In this document: positions 32,768 through 57,132 of the stretch, piece after piece
How the letters are laid out: the number at the start of each line of letters is the position of its first letter
Numbering within the stretch: the stretch's first letter is position 1
Assembly: GCF_000733725.1 (NCBI RefSeq)
Contig: NZ_JMQM01000002.1
Span: 186,001-250,000 of the forward strand
Length of the DNA stretch: 64,000 bases
Source of the DNA: Nitratireductor basaltis
GTDB lineage: Bacteria; Pseudomonadota; Alphaproteobacteria; Rhizobiales; Rhizobiaceae
Direction of reading: 5' to 3'
The notes under the pieces: model-generated
What the model saw: only the letters and a program-made list of their open reading frames with translations
Database searches by the model: none
What the model was told of the DNA's origin: nothing
Made by a program: the position numbers and the translations under genes

Positions 32768-33414
32768 GGCTTCCACTTCAGGAAATTTGCGATAAGCGCA
32801 AGACCAAGTGTCTGGCTCTTTTCGGGGTGGAACTGGGTGCCGACGAGGTTGTCCCGGGCTACCGCTGCGGTAACGGGCCCGCCATAGTTGGTGGTCGCCA
32901 GAATCTGCTCAGGCTGCTTTGCGGCGAGGTGATAGGAGTGCACGAAATAGGCGTGCAGTCCGTCCGGGCCTGTGGGAATGTCATTAAACAGTGGATGGGA
33001 ATGTTTCACGTGAATCGTGTTCCATCCGATTTGCGGAATCTTAAGATTTGGATCCGCGGGCTGCATCTCCTGAACATCGCCTGCGATCCAGCCGAAGCCT
33101 TCGGTGACTTCCTTTTCAAGGCCGCGTTCGGACATCAACTGCATGCCGACGCAGATACCGAGAAAAGGCCGGGCCTTGGCAATGACCGCTTCATTGAGCG
33201 CTTCTTCCATGCCGGAGACCGAGGCCAGGCCGCGGCGGCAATCGGCATAGGCGCCGACACCTGGTAGAACCACGCGGTCTGCTGAAGCGACGGCGGACGG
33301 ATCGGCGGTCAGGTCGATCGTGGCATCAAGGCCGGATTCACGGGCAGCACGTTCAAAAGCCTTGGTCGCCGAACGCAGATTTCCCGAACCATAGTCGATT
33401 ATGGCAACGCGCAT
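32764..33414 (-). CDS. hisH: Imidazole glycerol phosphate synthase glutaminase subunit
   Basis: Class-I glutamine amidotransferase that feeds ammonia to HisF. The 216-residue protein carries the triad Cys88 (GICVGMQ), His196 and Glu198 (QFHPEKS). It is followed by hisA with a 4 nt overlap. A parS-like 16-mer (33002-33017) is embedded in its coding sequence in the stretch encoding HVKHSHP, so this gene doubles as a candidate ParB-binding site 13 kb from the predicted origin. Confidence 0.97.
33002..33017. promoter_or_regulatory. parS-like ParB site inside hisH
   Basis: TGTTTCACGTGAATCG matches the consensus TGTTTCACGTGAAACA at 14 of 16 positions, with an intact TTCACGTGAA core. It is isolated from the other sites. 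Confidence 0.7.
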
Positions 33415-41574: not shown

Positions 41575-41674
41575 GGCTTCGCAAACTTGTCTTGCCGATA
41601 GGCTCGTGCTAGCCAACGCGACAGATTTCAAGTGGCTTAGAGCCGCGTAACGCGTGGATGAGGACTTTAGGCGG

Positions 41675-42190
41675 ATGGCCAAGAACCCGCAGGAAAACGA
41701 CCAGAACAAGGAAGCCGGACAGCAGGCGGCAGGAAATGGCGCGCAGCCGAGCCTCAATGTGCTGACGCAGTATGTGAAGGATCTGTCCTTCGAGAGCCCC
41801 GGCGCCCCGCAGTCCCTTCGCAATCGTGGCGAAAAGGCTCCAGCGATCAACATCAATGTCAATGTGAACGCCAATCCGCTTGGCGGCTCTGATTACGATG
41901 TTCTGCTGACGCTCAATGCGCGCGCTGAATCCGACAAGAACGTGATGTTCAATGTGGAGCTGCTTTACGGCGGTATTTTCCGCATCGAAGGTTTCCCCCA
42001 GGAGCACATGCTGCCGCTGCTCTTCATCGAGTGCCCGCGTCTGCTCTTCCCGTTCGCACGTCAGATCATCGCCGACGCGACCCGCAATGGTGGCTTCCCG
42101 CCGCTGATGATCGACCCGATCGACTTTGCCCGCATGTTCCAGCAGCGCATGGCTGAAGAACAGGCCAAGGCGAAGGTTCAGGCCTCCTGA
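41675..42190 (+). CDS. secB: Protein-export chaperone SecB
   Basis: Tetrameric cytosolic chaperone that keeps preproteins unfolded and delivers them to SecA. The 171-residue protein has the family core ([56 protein letters not shown]). An N-terminal extension of about 30 residues is Gln/Asn-rich and disordered. The ATG at 41675 is taken over an upstream GTG (41654). A strong terminator follows. Confidence 0.96.
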
Positions 42191-44466: not shown

Positions 44467-45067
44467 CAATCAGTTTCCTTTCACGCAATGCTTCGAGTAG
44501 TGGCAGAAGCGGCATGCCGATAATCGTGAAGTGATCCCCTTCGATCTTCCTGAAGAGGTGGTTTCCGGCACCTTCCACCTGGTAGCTGCCGACGCTTTTC
44601 AATGCAGCATCACCGATTTCAGCGAGATACCGGCCGATGAAGCCCGGGTCCAGGTCGCGCAGGGTGATGTGTGCAATGGCGGTGTGACGCCATTCGACAC
44701 GCCCCTGATGGGCCAAGACTATGCCGCTGTTGAGCTGGTGCGTGCGGCCGGAGAGCGCAAGCAGGTTTCGTCTTGCCTCTTCCATGTCCTTGGGCTTGTG
44801 AAACAACCTCTCCTCGAGCGAGAGCGTCTGATCCGCACCAATAACCCAGGCATTCGGATGACGCTCGGAAACGTCGAGCGCCTTGGCTTCGGCCAGGATG
44901 GCAGCAACATCTTCTGCCGTTGCGCCACTTTCCTGCAGCGGTGCTTCCACTGAACGTTCGTCGATGTCAGGTGCTTGAGTGGCGATGTCGAGACCCACGT
45001 CTTCCAACATCTTGCGGCGGAACGGACTGGTCGAGGCCAGAATGATCGTTTCTGAATTAAAAGCCAT
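44459..45067 (-). CDS. Maf-like nucleotide pyrophosphatase
   Basis: A 202-residue Maf/YceF-type pyrophosphatase thought to cleave non-canonical or modified nucleoside triphosphates. Motifs are [13 protein letters not shown] near the N-terminus, [16 protein letters not shown], and the [12 protein letters not shown] segment. By the RRKML and GADQ pattern it is closer to YceF (m7GTP-type) than to YhdE, though subfamily assignment is tentative. The ATG at 45067 overlaps the PPSR stop by 11 nt. Confidence 0.9.
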
Positions 45068-45902
45068 CTTCTTCTCCGCTTGAACGTGTCTCCGCACGCA
45101 ACGCCATTATGGCAGCAGCGGTTTCCTCTATCGAACGGCGGGTCACATCGATCAGTGGCCAGCCATGGCGCGTGCTAAGCTGACGTGCATAGGACAGTTC
45201 GCGTCCGATGGTCGCCCGGTCCGTATATATGTCGAAACTGTCGTCAGCATGCGTGCCCAGCACCCGGTTCTGCCGGACCAGGGAGATCCGTTCGGCCGAA
45301 GCCACCAGACAAACAATGAGCGGATGCCGTGCAGTCAAAAGGGCGGGGGGCGGGGGCACGTCCAGCACAATCGGTACATTGGCTGTCTTCACTCCACGAT
45401 TGGCCAGGTAGATGCTTGTCGGTGTCTTGGAGGTGCGCGAGACGCCTACAAGGACCACATCCGCTTCCTCGACATCATGGGGAAGTTGACCGTCGTCATG
45501 CTCCATCGTGAAATTCAACGCGTCGATGCGCTGGAAATAACCGGCATCAAGCACATGCTGCGCTCCGACCCGCCGTCCTGCCGGGGTGCCGAGATAGGAC
45601 TGGAACACGCCAAGAACCGGTTCGAGTACCGAGACGACCGGCAGACCCATAGTCTGGCAGCGCTCATCAATCTGGCGCGCCAGTGCCTGATCGACGATGG
45701 TGTAGAGTACGATGCCCGGCTGACGATCTATTTCCTCGAAAACCCGCGCCAGCTGCTTTTCGGTCCGGATCAACGGATAGATATGTTCGATCGCCCGCGC
45801 ATTCTTGTACTGCGCAGCCGCAGCGCGACCGGCTGCAAGCAGCGTTTCGCCGGTCGCATCCGAAATGAGGTGCAGATGAAAGAAGCTCTGAGGCTTTTGC
45901 AC
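45057..45902 (-). CDS. PEP synthase regulatory protein (bifunctional kinase/pyrophosphorylase, DUF299)
   Basis: A 281-residue member of the family that switches PEP synthase or PPDK off by ADP-dependent phosphorylation and on by phosphate-dependent dephosphorylation. The P-loop-like GVSRTSKT is at 153-160, with [15 protein letters not shown] at the N-terminus as in all members. The start is the GTG at 45902, which gives the standard N-terminus. The longer open frame to 46151 runs through the predicted origin and is rejected. It is the first leftward gene from the origin. Confidence 0.93.
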
Positions 45903-45929
45903 ACGCCCTGTTCCCTGATTGTGGAGCAC

Positions 45930-45938
45930 TGTTGATAA
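45930..45938 (-). promoter_or_regulatory. DnaA-box-like site 1
   Basis: TGTTGATAA differs at one position from the reverse-strand E. coli consensus TGTGNATAA. Confidence 0.45.
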
Positions 45939-45988
45939 CGCCGGCAGCACGAATTGGCGAGGGAGCCTGTGGGGGAAAAGGTAGCATT

Positions 45989-45997
45989 TCATCCACA
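45989..45997 (+). promoter_or_regulatory. DnaA-box-like site 2
   Basis: TCATCCACA differs at position 2 from both TTATCCACA and the Caulobacter TGATCCACA box. Confidence 0.6.
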
Positions 45998-46143
45998 ATT
46001 GGCGTCGCCGTGCAGACAAGATTGCCCATGTGGGAATCTTTGTGGACGCCAATCGCCCGTACACAGAAAGAGAACCTTGGCGACGAGGGGAACCTTCGAA
46101 CAAGTTCAGGGATTCATGGAGTGAATCCGAACGATTCAGAATC

Positions 46144-46152
46144 TTCTCCACA
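46144..46152 (+). promoter_or_regulatory. DnaA-box-like site 3
   Basis: TTCTCCACA differs from TTATCCACA at position 3. It directly follows four closely spaced GANTC sites. Confidence 0.55.
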
Positions 46153-46217
46153 TGCCGTAGTCGCGGTGCGACGCGTTGGGGACTTGTGTTTTCAAGTCAG
46201 ACATCGTGGAAAGGAAA

Positions 46218-46226
46218 TAATCCACA
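46218..46226 (+). promoter_or_regulatory. DnaA-box-like site 4
   Basis: TAATCCACA differs at position 2 from TTATCCACA. It is the box nearest the AT-rich segment, about 45 bp away. Confidence 0.6.
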
Positions 46227-46302
46227 TTTCGAACAGACTCTAAGAAACAGAAAGAGTCTTCTTCGAAGAATCTTTTTTATTATCTATTCGGAGAGACCCG
46301 AA

Positions 46303-47334
46303 GTGGCGGCAACGAAATTCATGGAAGTGATGGACGGCAAGACCGTCTTCCCTCCACCGATCTGGATGATGCGCCAGGCAGGACGCTATCTGCCCGAATA
46401 CCGGGAACTCAGGGCCAAGGCGGGAAGCTTCCTCGACCTATGCTACAATCCGGACTTCGCAGTTGAGGTAACGCTGCAGCCGATCAGGCGGTTCCACTTT
46501 GACGCAGCGATCCTGTTTTCCGACATTCTGGTTGTGCCGCACGCGCTCGGACGGGATCTACGCTTCGAGGAAGGTCGCGGACCGGTTCTTACGCCCATAA
46601 AGGCGGATGAGGTTGACGCTCTCGGGCGGGTCGACACCTTTCACGAAAGGCTTGCGCCGGTCTACGAGACCGTGCGGCGTTTGAAAGATGAATTGCCCGA
46701 TGATGTGTCACTGATCGGCTTTTGCGGCGCACCCTGGACCGTTGCCACCTACATGATCGCCGGACATGGCACGCCTGATCAGGCACCTGGCCGACTGTTT
46801 GGCTATAGCGATCCGCACTTGATGGATGCGCTTCTGGATGTACTGGCGGTGCGTTCGGCCGACTATCTTATCCGCCAGATTGAAGCTGGTGCGGATGCCG
46901 TACAGATTTTCGATTCCTGGTCCGGCGTTCTGGATGAAGCCTGTTTCGAGCGCTGGTGCGTGGCGCCAGTGGCCAAGATGGTGAAGATTGTCCGCGAGCG
47001 CTGCGGCAACATTCCGATTATCGGCTTTCCGAAGGGTGCCGGCTGTTTCGCCGATAGCTACCGGGCCAAGACGGGCATCACGGCGCAAGGCCTTGACTGG
47101 ACCGTGCCAATGACCAAGGCACGAACCTTGCAGGAAGCGGGCCCCGTTCAGGGCAATCTTGATCCGATGCGATTGCGGGCAGGCGGCAAGGCTTTGGAAG
47201 AGGGTGTCGATCGGATCCTCGAAGAACTCGGGAGAGGGCCGCTGGTTTTCAATCTTGGCCACGGCATCACACCGCAGGTGCCCGTGAGCCATGTTGAGGC
47301 GCTGGTCAAACGGGTCAGACAGGCTGAGGGGTGA
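46303..47334 (+). CDS. hemE: Uroporphyrinogen decarboxylase
   Basis: Decarboxylates uroporphyrinogen III to coproporphyrinogen III in heme synthesis. The 343-residue protein has the signature [16 protein letters not shown] near 12-27, the substrate-binding [20 protein letters not shown] and the C-terminal NLGHGI. The start is the GTG at 46303 with GGAGAG 7 nt before it, giving the usual family N-terminus. A longer frame (to 46030) passes through the predicted origin and is rejected. hemJ follows after 5 nt. Confidence 0.96.
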
Positions 47335-49387: not shown

Positions 49388-51385
49388 CTAATTAACCCGA
49401 ATGGCATCGCGAAGCTTGGTTTCGAGCGCTTCGGGACCCCGGAGAGGGGGCAGGCATCGCGTTGGCTGGCACAGATAAGCGGTCTCGCTGTCTGCGATTA
49501 GCTCCATACCGGCCGCCATGGTTGCTGTTCCGGGTGCAACACGAACATCAATCCTCCGCAGATCCGGAAGCCTTGCCGCCAATCCTCGCATGGTTGTGTT
49601 CTGGGCGGGAAGCAGCAGCTTGTACTGAGTGCGCGCCATCGTTGCCGCAAAAATGATGCCGGCCCGACCATAGGCTTGCTCACGGCTCCTGCTCAACGCC
49701 TCCACGGCGACAGCGTCAACATGCTCCTGCACGTCCAAATTGCCCGTAACGGCAGCCAATTGCGACAACGCCAATATTATCTGGGCTGTGGCAGACAGCA
49801 CCGCCTCGTCAGCATCCCCACGGATGCGCAGGGGTATGTCTTTCCGGTCCTTCGCCTGCAGAAAATAGCCGGTCCCTTGCTCATCAAGAAAGTCTTCCCG
49901 CAGCACCGCGGCAAATCTTGTCGCGTCGTGAAGATAGGTCTCTTCAGCCGTACTGCTATAGAAAGCCAGAGCGGCGCTCATCATGGAAGCGAAGTCGGAG
50001 GAAAGTCCCTGCCTGACCCTGCCGTCCTGGAGGATCACGTGAGGCAGACGATGATCGTCCGATTTCGCCAAAATCGCGGCATAAGCGCGTTCTGCGGCTT
50101 TCACCCATTCGGAATTCCCGAAAACGGTTCCTGCACGGGCAAGCGAAGCTATCGCCATTCCATTCCAGTCGACCAATATCTTGTCATCGCGACCGGGTGG
50201 CGTACGCAAAGAGCGCCTCGCCAAAAGCTGCTTGCGAAGTTTCCCGAGTGTTTCATCTTCAACACTGTCCGCCTTGCGCAACAATATCGGATCACCTTCC
50301 CAGCCCGTTGGGGCAGCAAGATCGAAGTAGCTGCCGAAGGCGTCCCGTTCTTCCGCCAAGGCTTCTTCGATCTCATCTTGGGTCCAGGTATAGTAAGAGC
50401 CTTCGCCACCTTCGGAATCAGCGTCCATGCTTGCGGCAAATGCGCCGTCTTTCGTGGTCATGTCTCTGACAAGCCACTGAACCGTCTCCTCGCAGCGGCT
50501 TTTGAAAAATTGATCACCCGTTGCGGTGTAGCAATGCGTCATGAAGTCGATCAGATAGCTGTTGTCGTAGAGCATCTTCTCGAAATGGGGCACCATCCAG
50601 AGTGCATCGGTGGAGTAGCGGGCCATCCCTCCGGCAACGTGATCGTATATTCCGCCACGCAGCATCCTACTCCATGTCTGCAGGACATGGTCGCGGCTGG
50701 TGACGTCTCCATGCTCAAGCCAGTGCATCCACTGCATGTAGAGGAATGGAGCGTTGGGAAATTTGGGCGCTCCCTTCAGACCCCCGTTAATTGTATCGCT
50801 CATTCCTTTGATGCGTTCAGCCATTGCGATCAGCAGCTCATCTGGATCCTGATCGTCGTTCCAGCCGGACTGAGGTGCAAGCGTGCTGCGGACATAGTCG
50901 TGCAGTTTGGCAGCTGCGTTTACGAGCTTGTCCCTTTCATTGCTCCAGGCACGATTTACGGCCTGCAAAACGTCCATGAAGCCGGGTCGGCCATATCTTG
51001 CGTGCTTGGGAAAATAGGTTCCGCCCCAAAACGGTTTCGCATCCGGCGTCAGAAACATTGTCAGCGGCCAGCCGCCCTGTTCGCCCATGGCGCCAAGTGC
51101 GGCCATGTATGTCTGGTCGATGTCCCCGCGTTCCTCGCGATCAACCTTCACATTGATGAAATTGGCATTCATCAGCGCAGCGACTTCGGCGTCCTCGAAG
51201 CATTCATGCGCCATCACGTGGCACCAATGGCAGGCAGAATATCCAACTGAAAGAAGGATGGGCTTGTTCAGCTCCCTGGCTTCCTCTAATGCCTGCTCAC
51301 CCCAGGGCCGCCAATGGACCGGGTTATCCTTGTGTTGGCGAAGATATAAACTACCTTCGCGATCGAGAAGGTTCTCGTTTTCCAT
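49388..51385 (-). CDS. DUF255 thioredoxin-domain protein (YyaL/SPATA20-like)
   Basis: A 665-residue protein. The N-terminal thioredoxin-like DUF255 domain (about 1-165) has GYSACHWCHVM with CxxC at Cys52 and Cys55 and the HKDNPVHW motif. A long alpha/alpha-barrel part (about 220-660), as in glycoside hydrolase and epimerase folds, follows, with DWNGMAIASLARAG visible. Function is unproven. It is widely conserved, including mammalian SPATA20. There is no signal peptide. The ATG at 51385 begins the conserved part. It is the only leftward gene between the origin and parB and is divergent from mnmE. Confidence 0.9.
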   Translation of the reverse strand: MENENLLDREGSLYLRQHKDNPVHWRPWGEQALEEARELNKPILLSVGYSACHWCHVMAHECFEDAEVAALMNANFINVKVDREERGDIDQTYMAALGAMGEQGGWPLTMFLTPDAKPFWGGTYFPKHARYGRPGFMDVLQAVNRAWSNERDKLVNAAAKLHDYVRSTLAPQSGWNDDQDPDELLIAMAERIKGMSDTINGGLKGAPKFPNAPFLYMQWMHWLEHGDVTSRDHVLQTWSRMLRGGIYDHVAGGMARYSTDALWMVPHFEKMLYDNSYLIDFMTHCYTATGDQFFKSRCEETVQWLVRDMTTKDGAFAASMDADSEGGEGSYYTWTQDEIEEALAEERDAFGSYFDLAAPTGWEGDPILLRKADSVEDETLGKLRKQLLARRSLRTPPGRDDKILVDWNGMAIASLARAGTVFGNSEWVKAAERAYAAILAKSDDHRLPHVILQDGRVRQGLSSDFASMMSAALAFYSSTAEETYLHDATRFAAVLREDFLDEQGTGYFLQAKDRKDIPLRIRGDADEAVLSATAQIILALSQLAAVTGNLDVQEHVDAVAVEALSRSREQAYGRAGIIFAATMARTQYKLLLPAQNTTMRGLAARLPDLRRIDVRVAPGTATMAAGMELIADSETAYLCQPTRCLPPLRGPEALETKLRDAIRVN

Positions 51386-51425
51386 TTGATCAGCCCATCT
51401 ATGTCTATTCGAAAGGTAGCGCGCT

Positions 51426-52745
51426 TTGCTTCCGAGACAAAATGCGAGCGACACAATCTTTGCGCTTTCGACGGGTCAGCTTCCGTCAGGGGTCGCGGTC
51501 ATACGCATTTCCGGGAATGGAGCCTTCAACGCGATCCAGAAGCTTTGCGGGGTTGTCCCCGAGGCCCGCGTCGCGCGATTGGTCACTATCCGGGATGAGG
51601 TCGGCGAAGTTGTCGATCAGGGACTTTGCCTTACCTTCCCTGCCCCTCGAAGCTTCACCGGGGAAAACTGCGCGGAATTGCAGGTTCATGGCGGACGGGC
51701 TGTCGTGAACAAGCTTCTGCAATGTCTTGCTGCGCTTCCCGATCTACGGATTGCAGAGGCCGGCGAGTTTTCCAAGCGAGCCTATCTGAACGGCAAGCTT
51801 AATCTGACCGAGGCTGAAGCGCTCGCCGACCTGATTGACGCGGAAACAGAGGCGCAGCGCCAATTCGCTCTGAGCAACCAGACCATGGCCCACGAAAGGC
51901 TATATGATCAGTGGCGTGAGAAGCTTTTGCATATCCGCGCCTATATGGAAGCCGAACTCGATTTCGCTGATGAAACAGATGTGCCGGATGATGCAGCATC
52001 CTGGATATGGAACGACCTTGAGGATCTGCACTCCGCCATTCGAGCTCATATTGAAAGTTATAGAAGTGCAGAGATCATCCGCGAAGGGTTTCGGGTAGCC
52101 TTGATAGGCGCACCCAATGCAGGAAAGTCGACGCTCCTGAATCATCTGGCCAAACGGGAAGCAGCGATTGTTTCAGAAATCCCAGGTACTACGAGAGATG
52201 TGATCGAGGTCCAACTGGAGCTCGATGGCTTCAAGGTGATTCTGACCGATACTGCAGGCATCAGGGAGGATGCCGACGAAGTGGAGGCGATCGGTATCGA
52301 ACGCAGCCTCAAGGCTGCGGAAGATGCACACCTAATCCTGCATCTCATTGATGGCTCCAACCCGAGAAAGGTTCGGGAACATGGGGATGCCGACCAGATC
52401 GATGTCTATACCAAGGCAGACATCGCCACTCCGGATGATGGCTGCATCGCGATTTCCACCCACCGCAATATCGGGATTCAAACACTACTGGATGCCATGG
52501 TGGCGGCCTGCCGCCGTTCCACTTCCAGTTTGAACAGTGTCAGTCCTTTCCGTCTCAGGCATGTCAGGGAATTGGAAAAGGGTGCGGCAGCTATCAATCG
52601 TGCGCTGAACCAGCCGAGGGACCTGCTGGAACTTTCGGCTGAGGAGATGCGCGAAGCGTCGGATGCCCTCGCCCGGATATGTGGCAGGTCGGACGTCGAA
52701 GAAATTCTCGGAGCTATCTTTTCGAGTTTCTGCGTTGGCAAGTGA
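51426..52745 (+). CDS. mnmE: tRNA modification GTPase MnmE
   Basis: With MnmG it installs the (c)mnm5 group on U34 of tRNAs. The 439-residue protein has the N-terminal tetrahydrofolate-binding domain (1-120, IFALSTGQLPSGVAVIRISG), a helical domain, the inserted G domain (GAPNAGKS 228-235, DTAG, TKAD), and the catalytic C-terminus FCVGK with Cys436. The start is TTG at 51426, the only start codon after an in-frame TAG at 51417, with AAAGG 9 nt upstream. The spacer to mnmG contains four parS-like sites. Confidence 0.95.
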   Translation: MLPRQNASDTIFALSTGQLPSGVAVIRISGNGAFNAIQKLCGVVPEARVARLVTIRDEVGEVVDQGLCLTFPAPRSFTGENCAELQVHGGRAVVNKLLQCLAALPDLRIAEAGEFSKRAYLNGKLNLTEAEALADLIDAETEAQRQFALSNQTMAHERLYDQWREKLLHIRAYMEAELDFADETDVPDDAASWIWNDLEDLHSAIRAHIESYRSAEIIREGFRVALIGAPNAGKSTLLNHLAKREAAIVSEIPGTTRDVIEVQLELDGFKVILTDTAGIREDADEVEAIGIERSLKAAEDAHLILHLIDGSNPRKVREHGDADQIDVYTKADIATPDDGCIAISTHRNIGIQTLLDAMVAACRRSTSSLNSVSPFRLRHVRELEKGAAAINRALNQPRDLLELSAEEMREASDALARICGRSDVEEILGAIFSSFCVGK

Positions 52746-52761
52746 GGATTCACGTGAAACA
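52746..52761. promoter_or_regulatory. parS: parS-like site
   Basis: GGATTCACGTGAAACA matches TGTTTCACGTGAAACA at 14 of 16 positions. It begins one base after the mnmE stop. Confidence 0.8.
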
Positions 52762-52781
52762 CCAACCTCAATCATCTTTGC

Positions 52782-52797
52782 TGACTCACGTGAAACA
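52782..52797. promoter_or_regulatory. parS: parS-like site
   Basis: TGACTCACGTGAAACA, 14 of 16 positions. The left half-site carries GACTC, which is also a GANTC methylation target. Confidence 0.8.
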
Positions 52798-52815
52798 CAT
52801 GCAGTGAACTTTCGC

Positions 52816-52831
52816 TGACTCACGTGAAACA
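52816..52831. promoter_or_regulatory. parS: parS-like site
   Basis: TGACTCACGTGAAACA, identical to the site 34 bp upstream, again with a GACTC in the left half. Confidence 0.8.
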
Positions 52832-52850
52832 TTTCCGGCAGCTAATCCTC

Positions 52851-52866
52851 CGTTTCACGTGAAACG
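52851..52866. promoter_or_regulatory. parS: parS-like site, fully symmetric
   Basis: CGTTTCACGTGAAACG is a perfect 16 bp palindrome, 14 of 16 to consensus, with mismatches only in the outermost bases. Confidence 0.82.
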
Positions 52867-54787: not shown

Positions 54788-55425
54788 ACAGTCGGTACGA
54801 AGCCCTTGTCAAGATAGCCGGACCAGTTTCACGTGAAACATTTGACAGGCTGCTGGCTTTTGAACAGAAATTCTTGCACTGGTCGAAAAGCATAAATTTG
54901 GCTGCGCCGTCTACGCTCCCTCACATCTGGGAGCGGCATATTCTGGACAGCTCTCAACTCGTGACTCACGTGAAACATGCCGATAGTCTTGTAGACATAG
55001 GTTCCGGCGGAGGATTTCCGGGTGCCATTCTGGCGATCATGCTGGCCGACAGAACCCAGGTGCACCTGGTCGAGAGCAACCGCAAGAAAGCATCGTTCCT
55101 GAACACGGTTCTCCATGAACTGGGAACGCCGGCACAGGTGCATGCCAAGCGGATTGAAGACAGTTATGATCTGGTTGGGCGGGCCGATGTGGTAACTGCG
55201 CGCGCTCTGGCTCCGCTCAAACTCCTGTTGGAGCTTGCATCGCCCTGGATCTCAGGTGGAGCTTCCGCATATTTCCATAAAGGACGGGATTACCAACAGG
55301 AAATCGCAGAAAGCGATACCTTGGACAGCTACGATCTGTTAATACATCAGGACCTGGTTACGAAAGAAGGCGTGATTCTACAGCTTTCAAAGAAGCAGCA
55401 GCCAGCTGCGCCGGGCGGTGAATAG
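54784..55425 (+). CDS. rsmG: 16S rRNA m7G527 methyltransferase RsmG (GidB)
   Basis: Methylates G527 of 16S rRNA with SAM. The 213-residue protein has the SAM-binding [10 protein letters not shown] at 71-80, [11 protein letters not shown] and TARALAPL. The start is TTG at 54784 overlapping the mnmG stop by 4 nt, with GGAGAG 6 nt upstream. No ATG or GTG gives a complete protein. Two parS-like sites are embedded in the coding sequence, encoding VSRETF (15-20) and VTHVKH (60-65). Confidence 0.94.
54825..54840. promoter_or_regulatory. parS: parS-like site inside rsmG (best match)
   Basis: AGTTTCACGTGAAACA matches the consensus at 15 of 16 positions, the best in the window. Confidence 0.88.
54962..54977. 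promoter_or_regulatory. parS: parS-like site inside rsmG
   Basis: TGACTCACGTGAAACA, 14 of 16 positions, the same variant as two sites in the mnmE-mnmG spacer. Confidence 0.8.
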
Positions 55426-55446: not shown

Positions 55447-56238
55447 ATGGATAAGTCCACACGCATAATCACGGTTGCCAACCAGAAGGGTGGAGTGGGA
55501 AAGACCACCACCGCCATCAATCTGGCCACTGCATTGGCCGCAATTGGCGAGCGCGTGCTCGTCGTTGACCTGGATCCGCAGGGTAATGCCAGTACGGGGC
55601 TCGGGATTGATCGTCAGGCGCGCCAGCTTTCGTCCTATGATGTTCTTACGGGCGGTGCCGACATCCCCGCAGCGGCCATGGAGACGGCAGTTCCGGGTTT
55701 GTCCATCGTTCCGTCCACCCTTGATCTTCTCGGCATCGAGATGGAGATTTCCGAGGCTCCCGACCGCGTGCTGAAGCTGCGCAACGCGCTGCGGAATTCA
55801 GGTCCCTTGGAATTCAGCTATGTGCTGATCGATTGTCCGCCATCCTTGAACCTCCTGACACTCAATGCAATGGCAGCGGCAGATTCAGTCCTTGTTCCGC
55901 TCCAGTGTGAATTCTTTGCGCTGGAAGGTCTGAGCCAGCTTCTGGAAACGGTCGAGCAGATCCGTGGGTCAATCAACCGACAGCTTGGCATCCAGGGCAT
56001 CGTCCTGACAATGTATGACCGACGGAACAATCTCGCCAACCAGGTCGTAGAAGATGTCCGCGCCTATATGGGAGAGGCTGTCTACGAGACCGTTATCCCG
56101 CGCAATGTGCGCGTTTCGGAAGCTCCGTCATATGGAAAGCCCGCTATCCTGTATGACCTGAAATGCTCCGGCAGCCAGGCCTATCTCCAGCTGGCTTCTG
56201 AAGTTATCCGTCGTGAACGCCGCCTGCAGGCTGCATGA
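55447..56238 (+). CDS. parA: Chromosome partitioning ATPase ParA
   Basis: Deviant Walker-type ATPase that moves ParB-parS complexes apart. The 263-residue protein has the signature ANQKGGVGKTTT (11-22, with the ParA-specific Lys14 and Lys19), DLDPQGNAS, and DCPPSLN. Length and lack of an N-terminal DNA-binding domain mark it as a chromosomal type (Soj). It follows rsmG by 21 nt and is followed by parB after 27 nt. Confidence 0.97.
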   Translation: MDKSTRIITVANQKGGVGKTTTAINLATALAAIGERVLVVDLDPQGNASTGLGIDRQARQLSSYDVLTGGADIPAAAMETAVPGLSIVPSTLDLLGIEMEISEAPDRVLKLRNALRNSGPLEFSYVLIDCPPSLNLLTLNAMAAADSVLVPLQCEFFALEGLSQLLETVEQIRGSINRQLGIQGIVLTMYDRRNNLANQVVEDVRAYMGEAVYETVIPRNVRVSEAPSYGKPAILYDLKCSGSQAYLQLASEVIRRERRLQAA

Positions 56239-56265: not shown

Positions 56266-57132
56266 ATGAATGAAGATCCCTCACGCAAACGTCTTGGTCG
56301 CGGGCTAGCAGCGCTGATCGGCGAAATGGACAAACCCGATGCGCCGGAACAGGCACCGGTACGGGCCGATCGCTCGGCACCGATCGAATTCGTCTCGCCC
56401 AATCCACGCAATCCGCGGCGTCATTTTGCTGAAGAAGATCTGGAAGATCTGGCGCAGTCCATTCGTGAACACGGAATAGTCCAACCGGTCGTCGTGCGCA
56501 CGGCCGCACAGGGACGTTACGAGATCATCGCAGGTGAACGCCGTTGGCGTGCAGCTCAGAAAGCGGGCCTGAACGAGGTCCCGGTGATCATCCGCGACGT
56601 GGATGACAAGGCTGCCCTGGAACTCGCGATAATCGAGAATGTTCAGCGGTCCGACCTCAATCCGTTGGAAGAAGCCCGCGGCTACCAACAGCTGATGGAC
56701 GAGCATCATTATACGCAGGCGGATCTCGGTCAGGTCATTGGCAAGAGCCGTAGCCATGTCGCGAACACGCTGCGGCTGCTCAAGCTGCCAGAAGCGGTAA
56801 CGGATATGATCCTTGACGGGCTTCTGACGGCGGGACACGCGCGCACGCTCGTCAATGCCGAAGACCCAGCAGGTCTTGCCAAGCGCATTGTCGAGGAGGG
56901 CCTGTCCGTGCGTCAGGCCGAGGCCTTGATGAACGAACCGGATATGTCCGTCGCGCCCAAGGAAAAGACGAAACGGGAAAAAGACGCGGACACGGTGTCG
57001 CTCGAGAAACTCCTGACGGATACGACCGGTCTGAAAGTTGCAATCAATCACAAGGCCAAAGGCGGTGAAGTTCGCATCGCCTATAAGAGTCTTGAGCAGC
57101 TGGATGAGCTTTGCAGGCTTCTGCAGCGCTGA
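56266..57132 (+). CDS. parB: Chromosome partitioning protein ParB
   Basis: CTP-dependent clamp that loads at parS and spreads. The 288-residue protein has the N-terminal ParA-stimulating basic stretch (KRLGRGLAALIG), CTP-binding GERRWRA at 90-96, ENVQRSDLNPLEEA (124-137), a helix-turn-helix with SRSHVANTLRLL, and the C-terminal dimerisation helix. Its cognate parS sites are candidates at 52.7-55.0 kb and 33.0 kb. No terminator is obvious in the 210 bp to the convergent holA end. Confidence 0.97.
   Translation: MNEDPSRKRLGRGLAALIGEMDKPDAPEQAPVRADRSAPIEFVSPNPRNPRRHFAEEDLEDLAQSIREHGIVQPVVVRTAAQGRYEIIAGERRWRAAQKAGLNEVPVIIRDVDDKAALELAIIENVQRSDLNPLEEARGYQQLMDEHHYTQADLGQVIGKSRSHVANTLRLLKLPEAVTDMILDGLLTAGHARTLVNAEDPAGLAKRIVEEGLSVRQAEALMNEPDMSVAPKEKTKREKDADTVSLEKLLTDTTGLKVAINHKAKGGEVRIAYKSLEQLDELCRLLQR

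Follow-up and report, generated by a model that had tools for sequence, protein, structure and literature searches.

The question raised by this locus is whether a short gene-free interval between the genes for PPSR (PEP synthase/PPDK regulator) and hemE is the origin of replication (oriC) of the main chromosome, as an earlier note on the same DNA had proposed. Our results indicate that this is almost certainly the case, i.e. the best explanation of the interval is the main-chromosome oriC of an alphaproteobacterium of the family Rhizobiaceae (in the GTDB sense). The window, i.e. the whole stretch of 64,000 nucleotides that was analysed, covers C2:186001-250000 of a 3.55-Mb draft genome in five contigs, and the interval (the gap) lies at C2:231.9-232.3 kb. 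The gap and its neighbours are as follows:

45057-45902, minus strand: PPSR, left neighbour
45903-46302, no strand: intergenic PPSR/hemE gap, assigned with high confidence as oriC
46303-47334, plus strand: hemE, right neighbour

The gap is bounded by the starts of PPSR and hemE, and its size of 400 bp, which agrees with the gene-free interval described earlier, depends on both start codons (GTG at 45902 for PPSR and GTG at 46303 for hemE). Its GC content is 49.5%, versus roughly 59% across the window. The divergence of genes around the gap, also claimed in the earlier note, was found as well: all genes to the left run leftward except secB (41654-42190), and those to the right run rightward up to parB, ending at 57132, with a sole exception at 49388-51454. 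This leftward gene, which separates rho from mnmE and runs counter to the general direction, encodes a 688-aa DUF255/thioredoxin (DsbH-type) protein. An Rfam search of 45300-46700 matched no known RNA family up to E = 1.

Within the gap there are seven CCACA/TGTGG cores, the number previously counted, versus 0.8 expected from their density in the window. A 9-mer with at most one mismatch to TTATCCACA was regarded as DnaA-box-like, and four such 9-mers are present, versus 0.04 expected from the window. The cluster noticed earlier is therefore real, but its count of three has to be raised to four, as the minus-strand box TTATCAACA, devoid of a CCACA core, had been overlooked. The boxes, with their state in an alignment of 67 sequences (see below), are:

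45920-45928, minus strand: weak DnaA box TGCTCCACA, 2 mismatches
45930-45938, minus strand: DnaA box TTATCAACA, 1 mismatch; at the aligned place, 35/67 sequences have a box within 1 mismatch
45989-45997, plus strand: DnaA box TCATCCACA, 1 mismatch; at the aligned place, 61/67 sequences have a box within 1 mismatch and 66/67 within 2
46057-46065, plus strand: degenerate box CCGTACACA; DnaA box within 1 mismatch at the aligned place in 28/67
46144-46152, plus strand: DnaA box TTCTCCACA, 1 mismatch; conserved in 3/67, i.e. not conserved
46218-46226, plus strand: DnaA box TAATCCACA, 1 mismatch; relatives commonly share AATCC/AACC only

As the divergent PPSR and hemE genes need promoters in the gap, it might be argued that it is a mere double promoter with DnaA boxes present by chance, the true origin being located nearby, e.g. 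where parS sites cluster between mnmE and mnmG. We consider this very improbable. In the 1.22 Mb of the genome sampled, no other 400-bp stretch exceeds two boxes (at most one mismatch), which makes this intergenic region the densest cluster; further evidence against a double promoter is provided by a conserved block described below.

The conservation of the locus was analysed using 80 hemE loci from related species, 70 of which have PPSR adjoining. In the alignment (n = 67, window included), counting from the first PPSR residue that aligns, the gap is 405-447 bp long in 63 sequences (Rhizobiaceae), e.g. 430 bp in an Ensifer locus of the same layout. The adjacency to hemE is conserved in relatives. 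Among the boxes with a CCACA core only that at 45989 is conserved; relatives do not share the other two, 46144 and 46218, at the corresponding position. The lack of conservation of two of the four boxes counts against the origin reading. At aligned places other than 45989, 45930 and ~46058 the median number of sequences with a box is 0. One of the related loci comes from a record titled Bacillus subtilis SK6B4, which carries a Rhizobiaceae-type hemE/PPSR origin region and is probably mislabelled or contaminated.

Genes and sites of chromosome partitioning were found close to the gap:

33002-33017: parS site, left side
52746-52866: four parS sites within 120 bp between mnmE and mnmG (52746, 52782, 52816, 52851)
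54825-54840 and 54962-54977: two parS sites in rsmG
55447-56238, plus strand: parA, chromosome partition ATPase
56266-57132, plus strand: parB

All eight parS matches of the whole genome (at most 2 mismatches) are located at C2:219.0-260.4 kb, within 29 kb of the gap, and parAB (55.4-57.1 kb) lies 9 kb from it, as would be expected near an oriC. The sites are densest at 52.7-55.0 kb, which is the point in favour of an origin at the mnmE/mnmG cluster.

The dnaA gene is far from the gap, on C1 (C1:2.405 Mb). Contig C3 (258 kb), with its repC, is a separate repABC replicon, and C1 and C2 were therefore taken as the main chromosome. In many bacteria the origin lies beside dnaA, and the two DnaA boxes (at most one mismatch) upstream of this gene, at about C1:2406118 and 2406319, could suggest the same here, with the gap as a relic. 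Two boxes in this position, however, fit autoregulation, C1 is devoid of a good parS match, and neither GC skew nor the polarity of the motif described below switches at dnaA, so that an origin at this site is hardly credible.

Strand asymmetry was examined by computing GC skew on the contiguous C2:1-450 kb and on spaced 20-kb samples. Almost all samples from the right of the gap through the rest of C2 and as far as C1:1.06 Mb have a positive skew. From C1:1.12 Mb onwards, over the remainder of C1, the values are negative or close to zero, and on C2 left of the gap they fluctuate around zero. The two arms thus differ, the left one (C2:1-230 kb and C1:1.12-2.56 Mb) being almost without GC skew and the right one having a clear skew of about 0.03. 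The best change point was placed at C2:262.5 kb (interval C2:236-334 kb, i.e. 4-100 kb right of the gap). Among the 8-mers of the C1 training samples, GGGCAGGG had the strongest leading-strand bias. The polar motif GGGNAGGG is distributed 76:10 in the right arm and 18:82 in the left arm, and its change point lies at C2:191-195 kb, left of the gap. Seven consecutive motifs at 9223-35412 of the window, left of the origin, have the wrong orientation (plus), as if this stretch had been recently inverted, and this pulls the motif change point leftward.

A second switch of GGGNAGGG is sharp and coincides with that of GC skew at C1:1.06-1.12 Mb, which marks the terminus. A dif pattern of the gammaproteobacterial type gave no match at 3 mismatches, a point against the origin reading; the terminus was placed by strand asymmetry only. 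C1 and C2 are separate contigs of the assembly, which also counts against this reading; with the right end of C2 joined to the left end of C1, the two arms would measure about 1.55-1.60 and 1.68-1.73 Mb.

The asymmetry switch expected at an oriC was located within tens of kb of the gap, with low resolution. The positions of the change points, one to the right and one to the left of the gap, count against the origin reading, and they bracket the gap without pinpointing it, their local resolution being poor. The earlier note had expected the cumulative skew minimum to fall in the gap. We found no skew minimum that would place the origin elsewhere, but skew alone proved a blunt tool: with a left arm that is nearly flat, the minimum on C2 carries no information.

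The hemE end of the gap is rich in AT and in methylation sites:

46034-46272: eight GANTC (CcrM) sites (46034, 46111, 46123, 46133, 46139, 46236, 46254, 46268)
46233-46254, plus strand: family-conserved block ACAGACTCTAAGAAACAGAAAG, with GANTC at 46236-46240 and a single-copy 17-bp core at 46233-46249
46239-46288, no strand: AT-rich, least stable segment, candidate DNA-unwinding element, overlapping the conserved block

The GC content of 50-mers falls to 26% at 46239, and the 45-mers with start positions 46241-46245 belong to the 0.05% of the window with the lowest stability. A low-stability element of the kind expected at an oriC thus lies beside the boxes, where an AT-rich segment had been reported.

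Eight GANTC sites per 400 bp were found in the gap versus 0.5 expected, although this density is not unique to it. Dense clusters of 8-9 sites per 400 bp outside the origin occur on C1 near 2548866 (L140:5966) and on C4 (L142:192). The genome encodes one N6/N4 methyltransferase with a RAMA domain, which corresponds to the layout of CcrM. The clustering of methylation sites at the origin resembles the GATC/Dam/SeqA control of E. coli oriC, but the methyltransferase here is of the CcrM type, and no SeqA-like reader is known. GANTC richness is already known for repABC origins (PMC6090056).

Origins adjacent to hemE have been described in Caulobacter and Hyphomonas, and in Hyphomonas neptunium a coverage peak was observed at hemE, with parAB about 7 kb away (PMC6650430). 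The gap resembles Cori of Caulobacter crescentus in its adjacency to hemE, in its DnaA boxes and in the location of parS/parAB a few kb off. It differs from Cori in the absence of CtrA sites: no TTAA-N7-TTAA sequence, which would point to a CtrA-controlled origin, was found in 45903-46302 at one mismatch or fewer. No IHF-like pattern was detected in the gap within one mismatch either. A closer likeness is offered by oriC of Sinorhizobium meliloti and other Rhizobiaceae, which share the adjacency to hemE, the DnaA boxes and the absence of CtrA sites. The S. meliloti oriC beside hemE has been experimentally shown to replicate autonomously. In the predicted origin described here, two of the four boxes are off the positions that the family conserves. 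The origin of S. meliloti lacks a CtrA motif, and CtrA does not bind it (PMC4433202).

The proposal that the gap is the main-chromosome oriC is supported by the parS sites and parAB, the switches of skew and GGGNAGGG, the near-equal replichores, the densest box cluster, and the conserved gap and best box. We therefore regard it, as a well-supported conclusion, as a hemE-type oriC of an ordinary and known kind that lacks the CtrA sites of Caulobacter.

The strongest conserved stretch of the alignment has the consensus ACAGACTCTAAGAATCAGAAGA and corresponds to the block at 46233-46254. The pattern ACMGASTCWWAGAAWYA derived from this block has a single match in its own genome. Across the order it was found in 8/249 genomes, all 8 being among the 10 genomes of the same family (0/239 in other families), and across the family in 204/298 genomes and 86/109 genera, with one match per genome among the matching genomes listed. 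A reversed control pattern gave no match in the family-genome search. All 30 family matches that were fetched adjoin hemE and maf, and most adjoin PPSR too. In 73 distinct sequences the block bases G5, A6, T8 and C9 are conserved at 97-100%, and the base between A6 and T8 varies (84% C, 15% G); GANTC is kept in 71 of them. Positions 12, 15, 18 and 21, which come after GANTC, are always A, and this spacing by threes resembles that of DnaA-trios. In 66 loci an AT-rich tract follows the block, with a GC fraction of 0.18 at 30-45 bases from the block start. In a literature search that covered few subscription journals we found no published description of the block, which may be new.

Is the block bound to the origin or to a gene? 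In Pseudaminobacter soli (L006/L155), where hemE is gone from the origin, the block, with one mismatch, lies between PPSR and hemJ-rho, and hemE is located on another contig without it. In two further genomes (L019/L157 and L054/L158) the block accompanies the hemE copy at the locus and is missing from a second copy elsewhere; in each pair the origin element stays. In Aurantimonas-like genomes, where PPSR is absent (L048, L053, L057, L070), the block is found between maf and hemE. It is thus tied to the locus and not to hemE or PPSR, which argues for an origin function and against a gene-specific promoter, as the promoter of a single gene would travel along with it. These cases also speak against the double promoter discussed above.

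On the other hand, the region may well be oriC and the block still a site of another factor, or a promoter of the following gene (hemE or hemJ), e.g. one dependent on GcrA and CcrM. This is a serious contender, to which we give somewhat less than an even chance. The block lies about 77 bp (median) ahead of the downstream start codon, and GcrA is known to bind promoters with methylated GANTC (PMC3667746, PMC8116508). Moreover, the A at every third base is on the plus strand, opposite to canonical DnaA-trios for a plus-strand box on the left. Against this, the block remains at the origin instead of following hemE, and in 66 loci the least stable DNA lies immediately next to it.

We also considered whether the block could be read as canonical DnaA-trios, as in the basal unwinding system (BUS). 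In published cases the trios are carried by the strand opposite that of the box and extend from it in the 3'-to-5' direction (PMC8235120, PMC6669920), and the NAN rule used to search for them asks for an A in each third place (PMC8287927). As a BUS we counted a DnaA box, a spacer of 0-16 bp and at least three NAN triplets in the correct polarity. Here, the box at 46218-46226 is followed by a 15-bp spacer and by AAG AAA CAG AAA on the plus strand, a polarity opposite to the published 3'-GAT-5' geometry, and on the hemE side of the block no DnaA box with 2 mismatches or fewer was found in the window. Because of this polarity, the canonical reading is not claimed. Like the BUS of Bacillus subtilis and others, the block lies beside AT-rich DNA and has an invariant A per triplet over four triplets, but its polarity relative to the nearest plus-strand box appears reversed; it is therefore BUS-like at most.

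From the features observed directly, i.e. the position, boxes, strand-asymmetry switches, parS/parAB cluster, conservation and low duplex stability, we infer DnaA binding, a melting site and bidirectional initiation at the gap. DnaA would bind the box cluster in the left and middle parts of the gap and open the AT-rich DNA at the hemE end, from or beside the block at 46233-46254, which is probably the start of the DNA-unwinding element. The helicase would be loaded at the opened DNA, and forks would leave both ways. ParB on the parS sites up to 29 kb away, together with ParA, would then segregate the new origins. With less weight, we suggest that the block may mark where DnaA meets single strands, and that its GANTC may let CcrM methylation influence re-initiation.

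A more specific form of this suggestion, which we put forward as a speculation rather unlikely to hold in full, is that ACMGASTCWWAGAAWYA is a dedicated single-copy origin element of Rhizobiaceae at the edge of the unwinding zone, fusing a CcrM methylation site with a DnaA single-strand site, and that hemimethylation after initiation would directly hinder a second opening of the origin until the late action of CcrM in the cycle.

Several independent lines fix the position of the origin in this genome. The less expected element at this origin of an otherwise known type is the family-wide block with a methylation site beside the melting zone. Being single-copy and family-wide, it constitutes a simple DNA mark for locating oriC in draft genomes of Rhizobiaceae. 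If the GANTC in the block matters, it would offer a testable answer to how initiation is coupled to the cell cycle without CtrA binding at the origin, as in S. meliloti, and a fused CcrM/DnaA element, if true, would be a once-per-cycle switch in origins devoid of CtrA sites.
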